From NCBI RefSeq assembly GCF_030063305.1, contig NZ_JASISV010000001.1:1116001-1180000 (forward strand): 64,000 nucleotides of DNA, given 5' to 3'. Below, one piece after another: positions 7,319 through 10,072 of the stretch. How positions within the stretch are numbered: the first letter of the stretch is position 1; the number at the start of each line of letters is the position of its first letter. A program made the position numbers and the translations under genes. Under the pieces are notes generated by a model that ran no database searches, was not told where the DNA came from, and saw only the letters and a program-made list of their open reading frames with translations. This stretch comes from Salinibacterium sp. G-O1. GTDB lineage: Bacteria; Actinomycetota; Actinomycetes; Actinomycetales; Microbacteriaceae.

Positions 7319-8176
7319 ATGATTACGATCACAGAACTGCTTGAGCGCGCAATCGGCACGCTCTCAAGCGCCGGAATCAGCAACCCGTCGGTCGACGCAG
7401 AGCTTCTCATCGGACACGTGCTGGGGCTCAGCCGCGGGGGAGTGCAGGCGAGAGCCGTCACGGGAACGACCGTGCCCGGCGACGCCTGCGCCGCGATCGA
7501 GCAGCTCGTGGAGCGCAGGGCCGCCCGCGAGCCGCTTCAGCACATCACCGGTCGAGCCGCGTTCCGTCAGCTCGATCTCGCCGTCGGCCCCGGAGTTTTC
7601 GTGCCGCGACCCGAGACGGAGTTCGTGGCGCAGTTCGCGATCGACGCGTTGCGCGCCACGGCATCACCCGAACCCGTCGGCGTCGATCTCGGCACGGGCA
7701 GCGGTGCGATCGCGCTGGCCATGGCGACCGAGGTCGGTCACGCTCGCGTGTACGGCGTCGAGGTCTCGCCTCGCGCCTTCGTCTGGACGCGGCAGAACTT
7801 CCGCGATGTGGGCGCACCGAATGCCACCGCCGTGTTCATCGACCTCGCGCATGCACTGCCCAGCCTCGATGGCAGGGTCGATGTGGTGATCTCCAATCCC
7901 CCGTACATCCCGCTCGGTGCGATTCCGCGTGATCCCGAGGTGCGGCTGTTCGACCCCGAGATCGCCCTCTACGGCGGGGAAGACGGGCTGGATGTCGTGC
8001 GCCAGGTCTCGGCGACGGCACTGCGACTGCTGCACCGGGGTGGCACGCTCATCCTCGAGCACGGCGAGTTGCAGGCCGCGCAGATAGCCGCGCTGCTCAG
8101 GGACGACGGATGGACCGCCGTCGCTCACCACCGCGACCTCCTCGGTCGCGATCGCGCCACGACTGCCCTGCGCTAG
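7319..8176 (+). CDS. prmC: release-factor glutamine N5-methyltransferase
   Basis: SAM-dependent enzyme that methylates the GGQ glutamine of release factors. The SAM loop is DLGTGSGAIALA and the substrate-glutamine motif NPPY is at residues 193-196. I place the start at ATG 7319 (285 residues): it begins the usual helical N-terminal domain (MITITELLERAIG), while a longer frame from 7241 would overlap prfA by 47 bases with unconserved sequence. Same operon as rho and prfA. Confidence 0.94.
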   Translation: MITITELLERAIGTLSSAGISNPSVDAELLIGHVLGLSRGGVQARAVTGTTVPGDACAAIEQLVERRAAREPLQHITGRAAFRQLDLAVGPGVFVPRPETEFVAQFAIDALRATASPEPVGVDLGTGSGAIALAMATEVGHARVYGVEVSPRAFVWTRQNFRDVGAPNATAVFIDLAHALPSLDGRVDVVISNPPYIPLGAIPRDPEVRLFDPEIALYGGEDGLDVVRQVSATALRLLHRGGTLILEHGELQAAQIAALLRDDGWTAVAHHRDLLGRDRATTALR

Positions 8177-8189
8177 CCGGCGCTCGCCC

Positions 8190-8235
8190 GCGCGCCGCTG
8201 CCCGCGCTGCGCGCCGCTGCCCCGCGCGCCGCTGC
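8190..8235. repeat. three short direct repeats GCGCGCCGCTGC
   Basis: GCGCGCCGCTGC occurs at 8190, 8209 and 8224 (spacing 19 and 15 bases) between prmC and the palindrome that starts at 8235. No gene is visible in the 234-base gap 8177-8410; it holds these repeats, the palindrome and otherwise unassigned sequence. Confidence 0.7.
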
Positions 8236-8289
8236 GAACCGCGGCAAATGTCGAGTGTGCGCGCCAGAGTCGACCATTTGGCGCGGTTC
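8235..8289. repeat. palindromic repeat element, upstream copy
   Basis: Left arm GAACCGCGGCAAATGTCGA (8236-8254) and right arm TCGACCATTTGGCGCGGTTC (8270-8289) are near-perfect reverse complements around a 15-base loop. The left arm plus base 8235 is an exact 17-base inverted match to the outer arm of the downstream copy at 9395-9411. The element resembles REP-type palindromes. Confidence 0.8.
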
Positions 8290-8410
8290 GCGAGCGTCCT
8301 GCTGCCGCGCCCGTGGCTCATCCTCCCCTCCACAGGCACCGTTGCCAGGCGGATGCCACCAACACGCGACCGTGCGGCGGTCCATCCTGCCAAGGCTGAC
8401 AGGGTGAAAT

Positions 8411-9389
8411 GTGACCCGCCGCCCCACGATCCCCGACGAGTTTCGGGGAGTACCATTCACGCGATCACAGAGCATCGCAGCTGCGCTATCGCCGGGTCGA
8501 CTGCGCTCGCGCGATATCGAGCATCCGTTCCACGACGTTCATCGGGAGGTGGGGAGCCCAAAGACGCTCGCCTGGAACTGCCGCGCATACCTGCTGCGAA
8601 TGGTGCACGGCGGGGCATTCAGCCATGCCACTGCAGCCGCGCTCTACGGTCTTCCCCTTCCGGCGTATGCAGCCACTTCCGTCGTGCACGTGACAAGACC
8701 GGTGGGTGGTCGCGCGCCAGAGGGTCGGGGTGTGGCAGGTCACGAACTTTCCTCCGTTGTGGATGACTCGGCCCTTCGTGCACCGCGACCATCAGAATCA
8801 CGACCTCTTCGAGCTCCCTGTTCTCGCTCCCGCCGTCGTGTGGGCGCAGTTGGCACAATCGCTGGATGAGGACGATCTCGTGGCGATGGCCGACGCCCTT
8901 GTCGCCGGTGCCGACCCTGTATGCACGATGCAGGAATTGAGGGTGCAAACCCTCGCATGGCGGGGCCGTCGAGGTGCTCGGGCGATGTTGAGGGCGATAG
9001 ATAATGTGCGAGTCGGATCGCTTTCCCGACCCGAGTCGCTACAGCGCCTGCAACTGGTGAGGGCGGGGATTCCGGAACCGAGGCTCAACGTGACTGTCGC
9101 CGATCTGCATGGCGTTGACATCGCGATGGCAGACGAGGTGTGGCCTGAGTTCCGGACACTCGTGGAGTACGAAGGGGATGGGCACAGAGCATCCCGCGGA
9201 AAATTTCGAAGCGACATCACCCGCGTCGAGCGGTACGCCGACGGCGAATGGTTCGCGCTTCGGTCTCACGCGGATGACGTGTTCGGCGACCCCAATCCTT
9301 TTATCGGACGGCTCTGGCGCAGGCTGGTGGCGCGCGGATGGCGTCCAGGGCTGCGCGAACCGCGGCATATTGCTCCCGCGCGAAGGTAG
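8411..9389 (+). pseudogene. frameshifted DUF559-type endonuclease-like gene
   Basis: Two overlapping frames look like halves of one protein. The first (from GTG 8411) has the N-terminal part with RTRSQSIAAAL-like helix and the segment AFSHATAAALYGLPLP, as in proteins annotated with an AbiEi-like N-terminal domain. Its sense ends near RGVAGHELSSVVDD. The second frame continues with DLFELPVLAPAVVWAQLA and ends in a Vsr/DUF559-like nuclease domain (VEYEGDGHRASRGKFRSDI, then RVERYADGEWFALR). The switch lies at about 8760-8810 and needs one extra base (or two missing). As written the gene is broken, unless this is a sequencing error or programmed shift. The stop codon lies inside the downstream palindrome. 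Confidence 0.75.
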
Positions 9390-9411
9390 ACCCCACATTT
9401 GCCGCGGTTCG
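9357..9411. repeat. palindromic repeat element, downstream copy
   Basis: Left arm GAACCGCGGCATAT (9357-9370) pairs with right arm ACATTTGCCGCGGTTC (9395-9410). The left arm encodes the last residues of the broken nuclease gene and the stop codon is in the loop. It may also act as a terminator for that gene. Confidence 0.75.
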
Positions 9412-9457
9412 ACGCGGGAGGGGCGGCTTGTGGCAACCGAGGGCTAGCGCCGACGGG

Positions 9458-10072
9458 CTAGCGGCGAGCCGCCGCGAACGTCTCGATCGCGTCGAGCATC
9501 CCGGCCGCACTGCCGTAGTGATACGACGTGATCCCGATCGAGCGGGCTCCTGCCACGTTCTCGTGCATGTCGTCGGCGAAGAACGCGTCGCGGGGAGAGG
9601 TGTCGTATGCCGCGAGCACCCGCTCGAACACGAGGGGATTCGGTTTGCGCGCACCGTAGTGACTCGAGGTCAGCATGTGCTCGCCGAAAACGTCGATCAG
9701 CTCGGGCGCGAGGGTGCGGATGTGTTTGGCGGTGAGCGCGTTGTTGTTGGTCAGCAGCGTGATTCTTCCGAGCTGGGATGCCCGGCGAACCGCCGCGATC
9801 GCTTCGGGCCGCACGGCCATCGCAGACCCGCGCACGCGCACCCACTCGTCTTCATCCACGTCGACACCGATCGCCGCGGTGAACGCGCTGAGGTAGGCAT
9901 CCGGAGTCTCGAAAACTCCGGCCTCTCCCGCCCACTCGCCGTCGTCGTGCCACCACAGCTCTCGCAGCTCACCGAGGGGGATGCCCGTGAGCTCGGTCAG
10001 TCCATCCATGCGGACGCGCCAGTCGTAGTCGTACAGCACGTCATCCATGTCGAAGATGAACAGGAGGCTCAT
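9458..10072 (-). CDS. HAD-superfamily hydrolase
   Basis: A 204-residue phosphatase-like protein with all four HAD motifs: DMDDV (nucleophile D8, acid D10), LLTNNN, the lysine of ARKPNP and FFADDMHENV. The small helical cap between motifs I and II places it with the subfamily I (phosphoglycolate phosphatase/epoxide hydrolase N-domain-like) members. The substrate cannot be told from sequence. Start ATG has GGGAGG about six bases upstream. Transcribed divergently from the Sua5 gene. Confidence 0.88.
   Translation of the reverse strand: MSLLFIFDMDDVLYDYDWRVRMDGLTELTGIPLGELRELWWHDDGEWAGEAGVFETPDAYLSAFTAAIGVDVDEDEWVRVRGSAMAVRPEAIAAVRRASQLGRITLLTNNNALTAKHIRTLAPELIDVFGEHMLTSSHYGARKPNPLVFERVLAAYDTSPRDAFFADDMHENVAGARSIGITSYHYGSAAGMLDAIETFAAARR

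Follow-up and report, generated by a model that had tools for sequence, protein, structure and literature searches.

Nucleases of the Vsr and DUF559 kinds occur as standalone proteins that act in short-patch repair or in roles yet to be assigned, and to our knowledge no link between them and palindromes is known. The tags of the repetitive extragenic palindromic (REP) sequences are GTAG or CGTC, the elements are reported mostly from gene 3' ends, and the CGTC class is described without a dedicated enzyme in one published account (PMC3733652). In type IV toxin-antitoxin systems the AbiEi antitoxins (S. agalactiae AbiEi and Rv2827c) bind paired 23-bp inverted repeats upstream, in their own promoters (PMC7319586). 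The present analysis concerns a nuclease gene bounded by two palindromes in a stretch of 64,000 nucleotides from Salinibacterium sp. G-O1 (GCF_030063305.1, contig NZ_JASISV010000001.1, positions 1,116,001 to 1,180,000), hereafter the window, the genome of which is referred to as G000. The unit is interpreted as a chromosomal selfish, palindrome-recognising nuclease element consisting of one gene and one recognition palindrome, with a probability of roughly 0.6. The nuclease–palindrome element is taken to work like the REP sequences with their REP-associated tyrosine transposases (RAYT), yet belongs neither to REP/RAYT nor to the classical homing genes.

The likeness to REP/RAYT consists of dispersed short palindromes at gene 3' ends, an enzyme gene bounded on both sides by that palindrome, arms specific to the family and a compact unit. 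However, the enzyme is here a fusion of AbiEi and EDxHD nuclease parts, whereas RAYT is an HUH Y1 tyrosine transposase (no search for RAYTs elsewhere in the genome was made), and the Pfam scan of eight homologous proteins gave no transposase family in any of them. The palindromes are also longer, with a variable centre and near-fixed length, and their outer ends, by inspection, are CGAG, TGAG, CGAA and others instead of GTAG or CGTC. With the EDxHD homing endonucleases (I-Bth0305I) the unit shares, by the model, a catalytic domain of that known family, but it differs in its AbiEi-like DNA-binding half, in its many dispersed sites with no intron or intein seen, and in the gene being framed by two complete palindromes rather than splitting one site. 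The N-terminal half has, by the model, a fold similar to the AbiEi antitoxins; unlike these, the protein has a fused nuclease domain, a second palindrome downstream and dispersed copies, and the window unit is without a toxin partner. The C-terminal domain is common to the Vsr and DUF559 nucleases.

The window unit and its protein

The unit is bounded by palindromes of 58 bp, without strand, at 8234-8291 and 9355-9412. The upstream one consists of 17-bp arms, 94% complementary, around a 24-bp centre, and its DNA hairpin has an energy of -31.3 kcal/mol (z -7.9); the values for the downstream one are -20.1 kcal/mol and z -2.9. The outer arms (8235-8251 and 9395-9411, both on the forward strand) are exact reverse complements over 17 bases, as the preliminary description of the locus had claimed, and its description of both bounding elements as palindromes also held. 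Of its comparison with terminal inverted repeats, the inverted arrangement of the outer arms stood, but not the simple terminal repeat, each element being a complete two-arm site. The 16-mer of the arm (at most three mismatches) had four matches in the window with 0.65 expected, all of them inside the two palindromes. A known RNA family was rejected for the palindromes, as a scan of 7900-9700 gave only three matches, all under the gathering scores and none on the palindromes. Integron attC sites were also considered for the palindromes, on shape alone.

The gene between the palindromes is frameshifted, because two pieces of the relatives' profile fall in different frames: profile positions 2-120 match at 8414-8770 and positions 120-301 at 8796-9347. 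The former belongs to an open reading frame (ORF) at 8411-8869 (forward strand) with the AbiEi-like N-terminal half, and the latter to an ORF at 8706-9389 (forward strand) with the C-terminal EDxHD/DUF559-like nuclease domain; the two pieces were used separately in the analysis. The second ORF terminates within the palindrome 9355-9412, which holds the stop codon of the C-terminal frame, and the gene end was thus correctly placed inside the second element by the preliminary description. Its single DUF559/Vsr-like gene in 8235-9411 was right as to kind, through the relatives, and wrong as to a single reading frame. In the Pfam scan neither window piece reached any family at E 0.001, and the cut-off was passed by two of eight relatives, on which the DUF559 label rests. 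Altogether, DUF559 or REase_MTES_1575 was matched in five of the eight homologous proteins, one had only other weak matches and two had none. The predicted model, compared with known folds in a VIA-align run, consists of an AbiEi-like DNA-binding half and a C-terminal EDxHD/Vsr-like homing-endonuclease domain.

Pairing of nuclease genes and palindromes

A covariance model made from seven copies found 15 elements in G000 (3.14 Mb), including the two of the window; 150 of the 1232 first-look candidates were scored, two weaker matches (E 0.35 and 6.9) were excluded, and the elements were usually matched on both strands. They are 58 or 59 bp long and measure 54 or 55 bp when counted from GAAC through GTTC; the arms are conserved and the centre is nearly random (identities 0.82 and 0.33 among 11 unique 54-bp copies, with 0.29 expected from composition). 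The same model gave weaker matches in six of 39 other genomes, and some of these differed in sequence and were alike in build; therefore gene–palindrome pairing was searched for more widely. In G009, for example, a gene of the nuclease family, likewise split between two frames, lies between two palindromes of another sequence that are separated by approximately 1 kb.

The protein search of the genus (27 genomes) produced 58 homologous loci, those of G000 included. Most of them read approximately 290-310 aa, and four (L015, L063, L087 and L064, the last close to a contig end) had no open N-terminal part in the match frame. Under the strict count, with palindromes of 50-68 bp, 18-bp arms and at most three mismatches, 33 of the 56 loci with enough flank had a palindrome upstream, 33 downstream and 23 on both sides, compared with approximately two expected upstream (0.034 per 320-bp window, as derived from 20 random stretches of 20 kb). 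The corresponding numbers were 22, 22 and 12 with at most two mismatches (0.015 expected per 320-bp window) and 41, 44 and 37 with at most four (0.119 expected). At the paired loci the gene mostly begins some tens of bases past the upstream palindrome and has its stop next to or within the downstream one.

A scan of named genomes found 68 loci, mainly in Microbacteriaceae (Salinibacterium, Cryobacterium, Agreia, Agromyces, Leifsonia and others) and outside the family in Actinomycetospora and Skermania. When these, less five duplicates, were pooled with the genus loci (63 and 58, altogether 121), palindromes of 50-68 bp with at most four mismatches were present on both sides of 79 loci (37 of 58 genus and 42 of 63 named), and the link of gene and repeat, first inferred from one locus, thus recurs. 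A wider profile search detected homologues (E ≤ 1e-8) in 96 of 296 actinobacterial genomes, and among 30 loci returned by it both palindromes (44-76 bp, at most four mismatches) were present in 10 of 15 loci of the same class and in 2 of 15 of other classes.

Chance pairing was rejected by random stretches, mononucleotide shuffles and nuclease-free genomes. Random stretches contained 42 palindromes per 400 kb in genomes with the nuclease, compared with 7 in mononucleotide shuffles and 6 in nuclease-free genomes of the same genus, which are lower in G+C (0.60 vs 0.67) and whose own shuffle gives 3 against the 6 observed. The possibility of phage cargo was also rejected: no relative was found in viral contigs in one scan with query A3, and phage records gave a single relative, 28% identical, in a 6.7-kb unannotated record (H7, MT837503.1:5022-5966). 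Six plasmid records were found.

The two palindromes of one locus have cognate arms. Palindromes for this comparison were chosen by symmetry and distance alone, and the median arm score was 17 between the two sides of one locus vs 5 between loci (3081 pairs). A score of at least 12 was reached by 68 of the 79 own-locus pairs vs 64 of the 3081 between-locus pairs, and the own partner was strictly best-scoring in 59 of the 79 loci. The arm sequences vary from gene to gene, and among 54 intact loci arm similarity grows with protein identity (Mantel r 0.44, reached in 0 of 500 permutations). Judged from sequence comparison, it appears to track the AbiEi half of the protein (partial correlation given the other half 0.32 for the N-terminal and 0.05 for the C-terminal half).

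Two further groups of loci were observed. A second nuclease subfamily (motif near GEFDG.GKY; L098 at G013:C6:237312, L096 at G014:C77:70183 and L122 at G022:C1:528259) has palindromes at one or both ends, and the palindrome of L098, GCGCGGGGGTTTCGAC, was found again elsewhere in the same genome (L111). In Cryobacterium and Frigoribacterium (L142, L146, L175 and L179) short series of palindromes of the cognate family lie on one or both sides of the unit, resembling REP clusters.

Dispersed copies and orthologous sites

Solo copies follow the cognate gene. The arm GAGTGTTCCGANWTG (at most one mismatch) formed 17 pairs in G023 and five in G024, all with a constant offset of 41 bp; these are the genomes of the cognate nucleases L083 and L088, and the other 25 genomes had 0-4 unpaired matches, about as many as the reversed-pattern control. 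The arm GAGGTGCGGCAAWNGCA (at most two mismatches) was paired at 38 bp twice in G007, five times in G008 and, among the matches listed, at least three times in G017, where the nucleases of this family are L074, L086 and L073, respectively; G000 had one pair, in a copy that belongs to its own, related family, and the other 23 genomes had none. In the two families tested, paired dispersed copies thus occur with the cognate gene and are absent without it. A genome search for the palindrome and its relation to DUF559 genes, which had been proposed for the original locus, found it scattered genome-wide, yet tied to DUF559-type genes, which have palindrome pairs of their own and are followed by these two dispersed families. 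Relaxed scans of the fetched stretches found 18 palindromes in G023 and nine in G024, flanking copies counted, and the solo copies of G023 are clustered (five neighbour gaps below 5 kb vs 0.39 expected).

A second family of G000 (CGAGACCTCC), with the intact nuclease L017, has nine solo copies. In four families with an intact nuclease the identities were 0.86-0.93 in the arms and 0.58-0.73 in the centres, against 0.82 and 0.33 in the window family with its broken nuclease, a comparison that includes one broken case and a small difference in the arms. On these sequence identities the window family looks the most decayed of the five.

The window unit lies between prmC (7319-8176, forward strand) and a convergent gene for an HAD-family hydrolase (9458-10072, reverse strand). 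In G017, the nearest relative, with 79-85% identity around the unit, 37 bp separate prmC from the HAD-gene side vs 1,297 bp in the window, and the interval 8177-9473 (without strand) has no counterpart. The insertion/absence polymorphism suggested for the region downstream of prmC is accordingly present. The site gave no nuclease match in the 26 other genomes of the genus, and in some (G004, G008, G009, G015 and G020) the interval is filled with other sequence. Across the end of prmC, a GC-rich 34-bp near-duplicate (79%) at 8167-8234 fills the gap to the first palindrome and is absent from G017.

At a second site, units of G000 (L017), G023, G024, G022, G020, G007 and G015 lie between the same flanks, and the site is empty in G017, G003, G019 and others. 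The seven nucleases share 48-70% identity, and within the genus set the nearest relative of each is mostly another of the seven, which makes them orthologues, while their arms agree in only 9-17 of 20 bases. Both flanks carry the species' own arms in all seven units, and the same holds for solo copies in G000, G022, G023 and G024, the four species in which they were examined; the flanking palindromes thus change together with the nuclease. Among 45 of 46 copies from the four species (L234:8358 omitted), 127 arm-pair cells were changed on both sides yet paired, compared with 38.8 in shuffles, which ignore relatedness, and at most 29 in slid alignments. An RNA-structure reading from the window family alone was rejected, as seven copies had no covariation above shuffles; covariation emerges only from a comparison of families whose arms have changed. 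In G009 (L368, C40, approximately 34270) a half palindrome, CGCCGAGTTCGCCACTTCTGCC, lies where seven relatives hold the whole unit, and is perhaps a relic of a lost one.

Solo sites were also compared between species. At G023 717597 a palindrome is present in both G023 and G022, with a right flank 88% identical over 60 bp and a left flank of 0.60 (reached in 4 of 300 shuffles). Both arms read GTTCCGA in one species and GTTGCCA in the other, and the flanking sequence suggests that this is likely an orthologous palindrome altered in place. A palindrome is present in both genomes also at 834921 (right flank 0.73 over 60 bp and 0.50 over the first 30, left none) and, by interval only, at 710860. 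No palindrome of the G022 family was found in G022 at the G023 sites 712142, 865832, 918386, 919130, 921821 and 955314, and the palindrome of G024 C7:105070 is absent from G022. G000 906535 and G017 have palindromes of different families in the same interval, the near flanks being unlike by eye; three other G000 sites showed larger differences from G017, with no palindrome of the nuclease type recognised. Another long imperfect palindrome (GGTTTCGAGACGCCGCC ... CTGGTTGAGGAG) was observed in G022 (L258, C1, approximately 1196280), at a site occupied in G024 by a solo palindrome of the nuclease type.

Explanations and meaning

Pairing, cognate arms, dispersal, near-fixed length, presence and absence, the change of the flanks with the nuclease and, as a predicted model, the architecture were computed. 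In the selfish element proposed here, the AbiEi-like half would recognise the two arms of the 56-58 bp palindrome, and the EDxHD/Vsr-like domain of a dimer would be placed over the centre, which is not recognised, to nick or cut the DNA at that point. The nuclease gene lies between two copies of its own palindrome, and more copies are scattered, most of them a short distance beyond the ends of other genes. By acting on its own palindromes the nuclease would promote the spread of both units and palindromes and keep them similar inside one genome, in a homing- or drive-like manner, and we propose that the arms are alike within a genome and different between species because this action homogenises them. 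The idea of a small mobile or self-spreading unit, in which a nuclease not of the RAYT type is tied to REP-like palindromes, thereby gains support from the pairing, the dispersal and the site polymorphism, while we infer the movement.

Several results weigh against this interpretation. To begin with, the binding, the cut in the centre and the movement or conversion are all steps that we infer. No palindrome pair was detected at 42 of the 121 loci, the other-class loci had both palindromes in only 2 of 15, one pair having unlike arms, and the arms were unlike (score below 12) in 11 of the 79 pairs, which may be chance pairs. The rank correlation of arms with protein identity among the 54 intact loci is modest (0.22), the partial correlations of the two halves may not truly differ, and the covariation shuffles ignore relatedness. 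The orthologous units at one site show long vertical inheritance, and transposition is therefore not frequent; the empty sites may be losses, compare the half palindrome of G009. The sites 717597 and 834921 could each be two insertions at one hot spot, since only the right flank is clearly homologous. No target duplication, which together with a transposase marks an insertion sequence or MITE, was readable, the empty-site junctions being too diverged, and a classical homing gene splits its own site, a layout unlike two complete flanking palindromes.

A stronger form of the selfish element is possible but doubtful: a drive system in which the AbiEi-EDxHD nuclease would rewrite the dispersed palindromes, so that after a change of recognition flanking and solo copies would be converted in place, symmetrically in both arms; the outcome would be 'passwords' particular to each species and a concerted evolution of palindromes at orthologous sites.

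The unit could instead be a regulator with its regulon, i.e. an AbiEi-type autorepressor with an incidental nuclease-like domain, for which the upstream palindrome would serve as operator and the downstream one as terminator, while the solo copies would be operators of other genes. Such an explanation agrees with the inverted repeats bound by AbiEi and Rv2827c in their own promoters, as described in PMC7319586, and with the upstream palindrome ending tens of bases ahead of the likely start codon in most loci. However, the gene context of the 36 solo copies (from a simple-rule gene caller) is unfavourable to it, as 14 lie between convergent genes, 19 between tandem genes, one between divergent genes and two inside a called ORF, and 25 are within 60 bp past a called stop codon. 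E199, D232, H249 and D258 are moreover invariant in 33 sequences, and a mere regulator would not need them; this explanation is considered unlikely.

A defence or addiction module, in which the chromosomal palindromes would serve as decoys, docking sites or self-markers restraining a harmful or antiviral nuclease, is somewhat less likely still. It would account for the AbiEi-like half (PADLOC matched AbiEi in four of six proteins), the Vsr-like nuclease and the many cognate chromosomal sites per genome. Against it, no partner toxin is evident between the window palindromes: the only family-matched ORFs there are the two nuclease pieces, and in the window no AbiEii nucleotidyltransferase toxin gene is adjacent. 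The window palindromes also persist next to a frameshifted nuclease, and the one scan of viral contigs with A3 gave no relative.

Ordinary dispersed hairpins, either terminators or REPs mobilised by an unrelated transposase and placed beside DUF559-type genes through insertion preference, are very improbable: the solo copies are mostly at gene 3' ends, as stated for REPs in PMC3733652, and intervals with a palindrome in each of two species could be hot spots, but gene-specific arms common to both flanks, two families confined to genomes with the cognate gene and the change of both flanks between orthologous same-site units would be left unexplained.

No report linking DUF559, Vsr-like or AbiEi-like genes with dispersed palindromes was found among the papers listed from the open-licence part of PubMed Central (without preprints and most subscription papers), and within that literature the nuclease–palindrome element is apparently an undescribed kind. 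Short dispersed palindromes have so far been known with one dedicated kind of enzyme, the RAYT transposases. If the selfish-element interpretation is true, a nuclease lineage with private palindromes, of many arm sequences and in many genera, would mean that the same lifestyle arose again from unrelated parts. The units would also form a natural series of matched protein–DNA pairs for reading DNA recognition of the AbiEi type, and palindromes changing in step with their nuclease would make molecular drive in bacteria directly testable.
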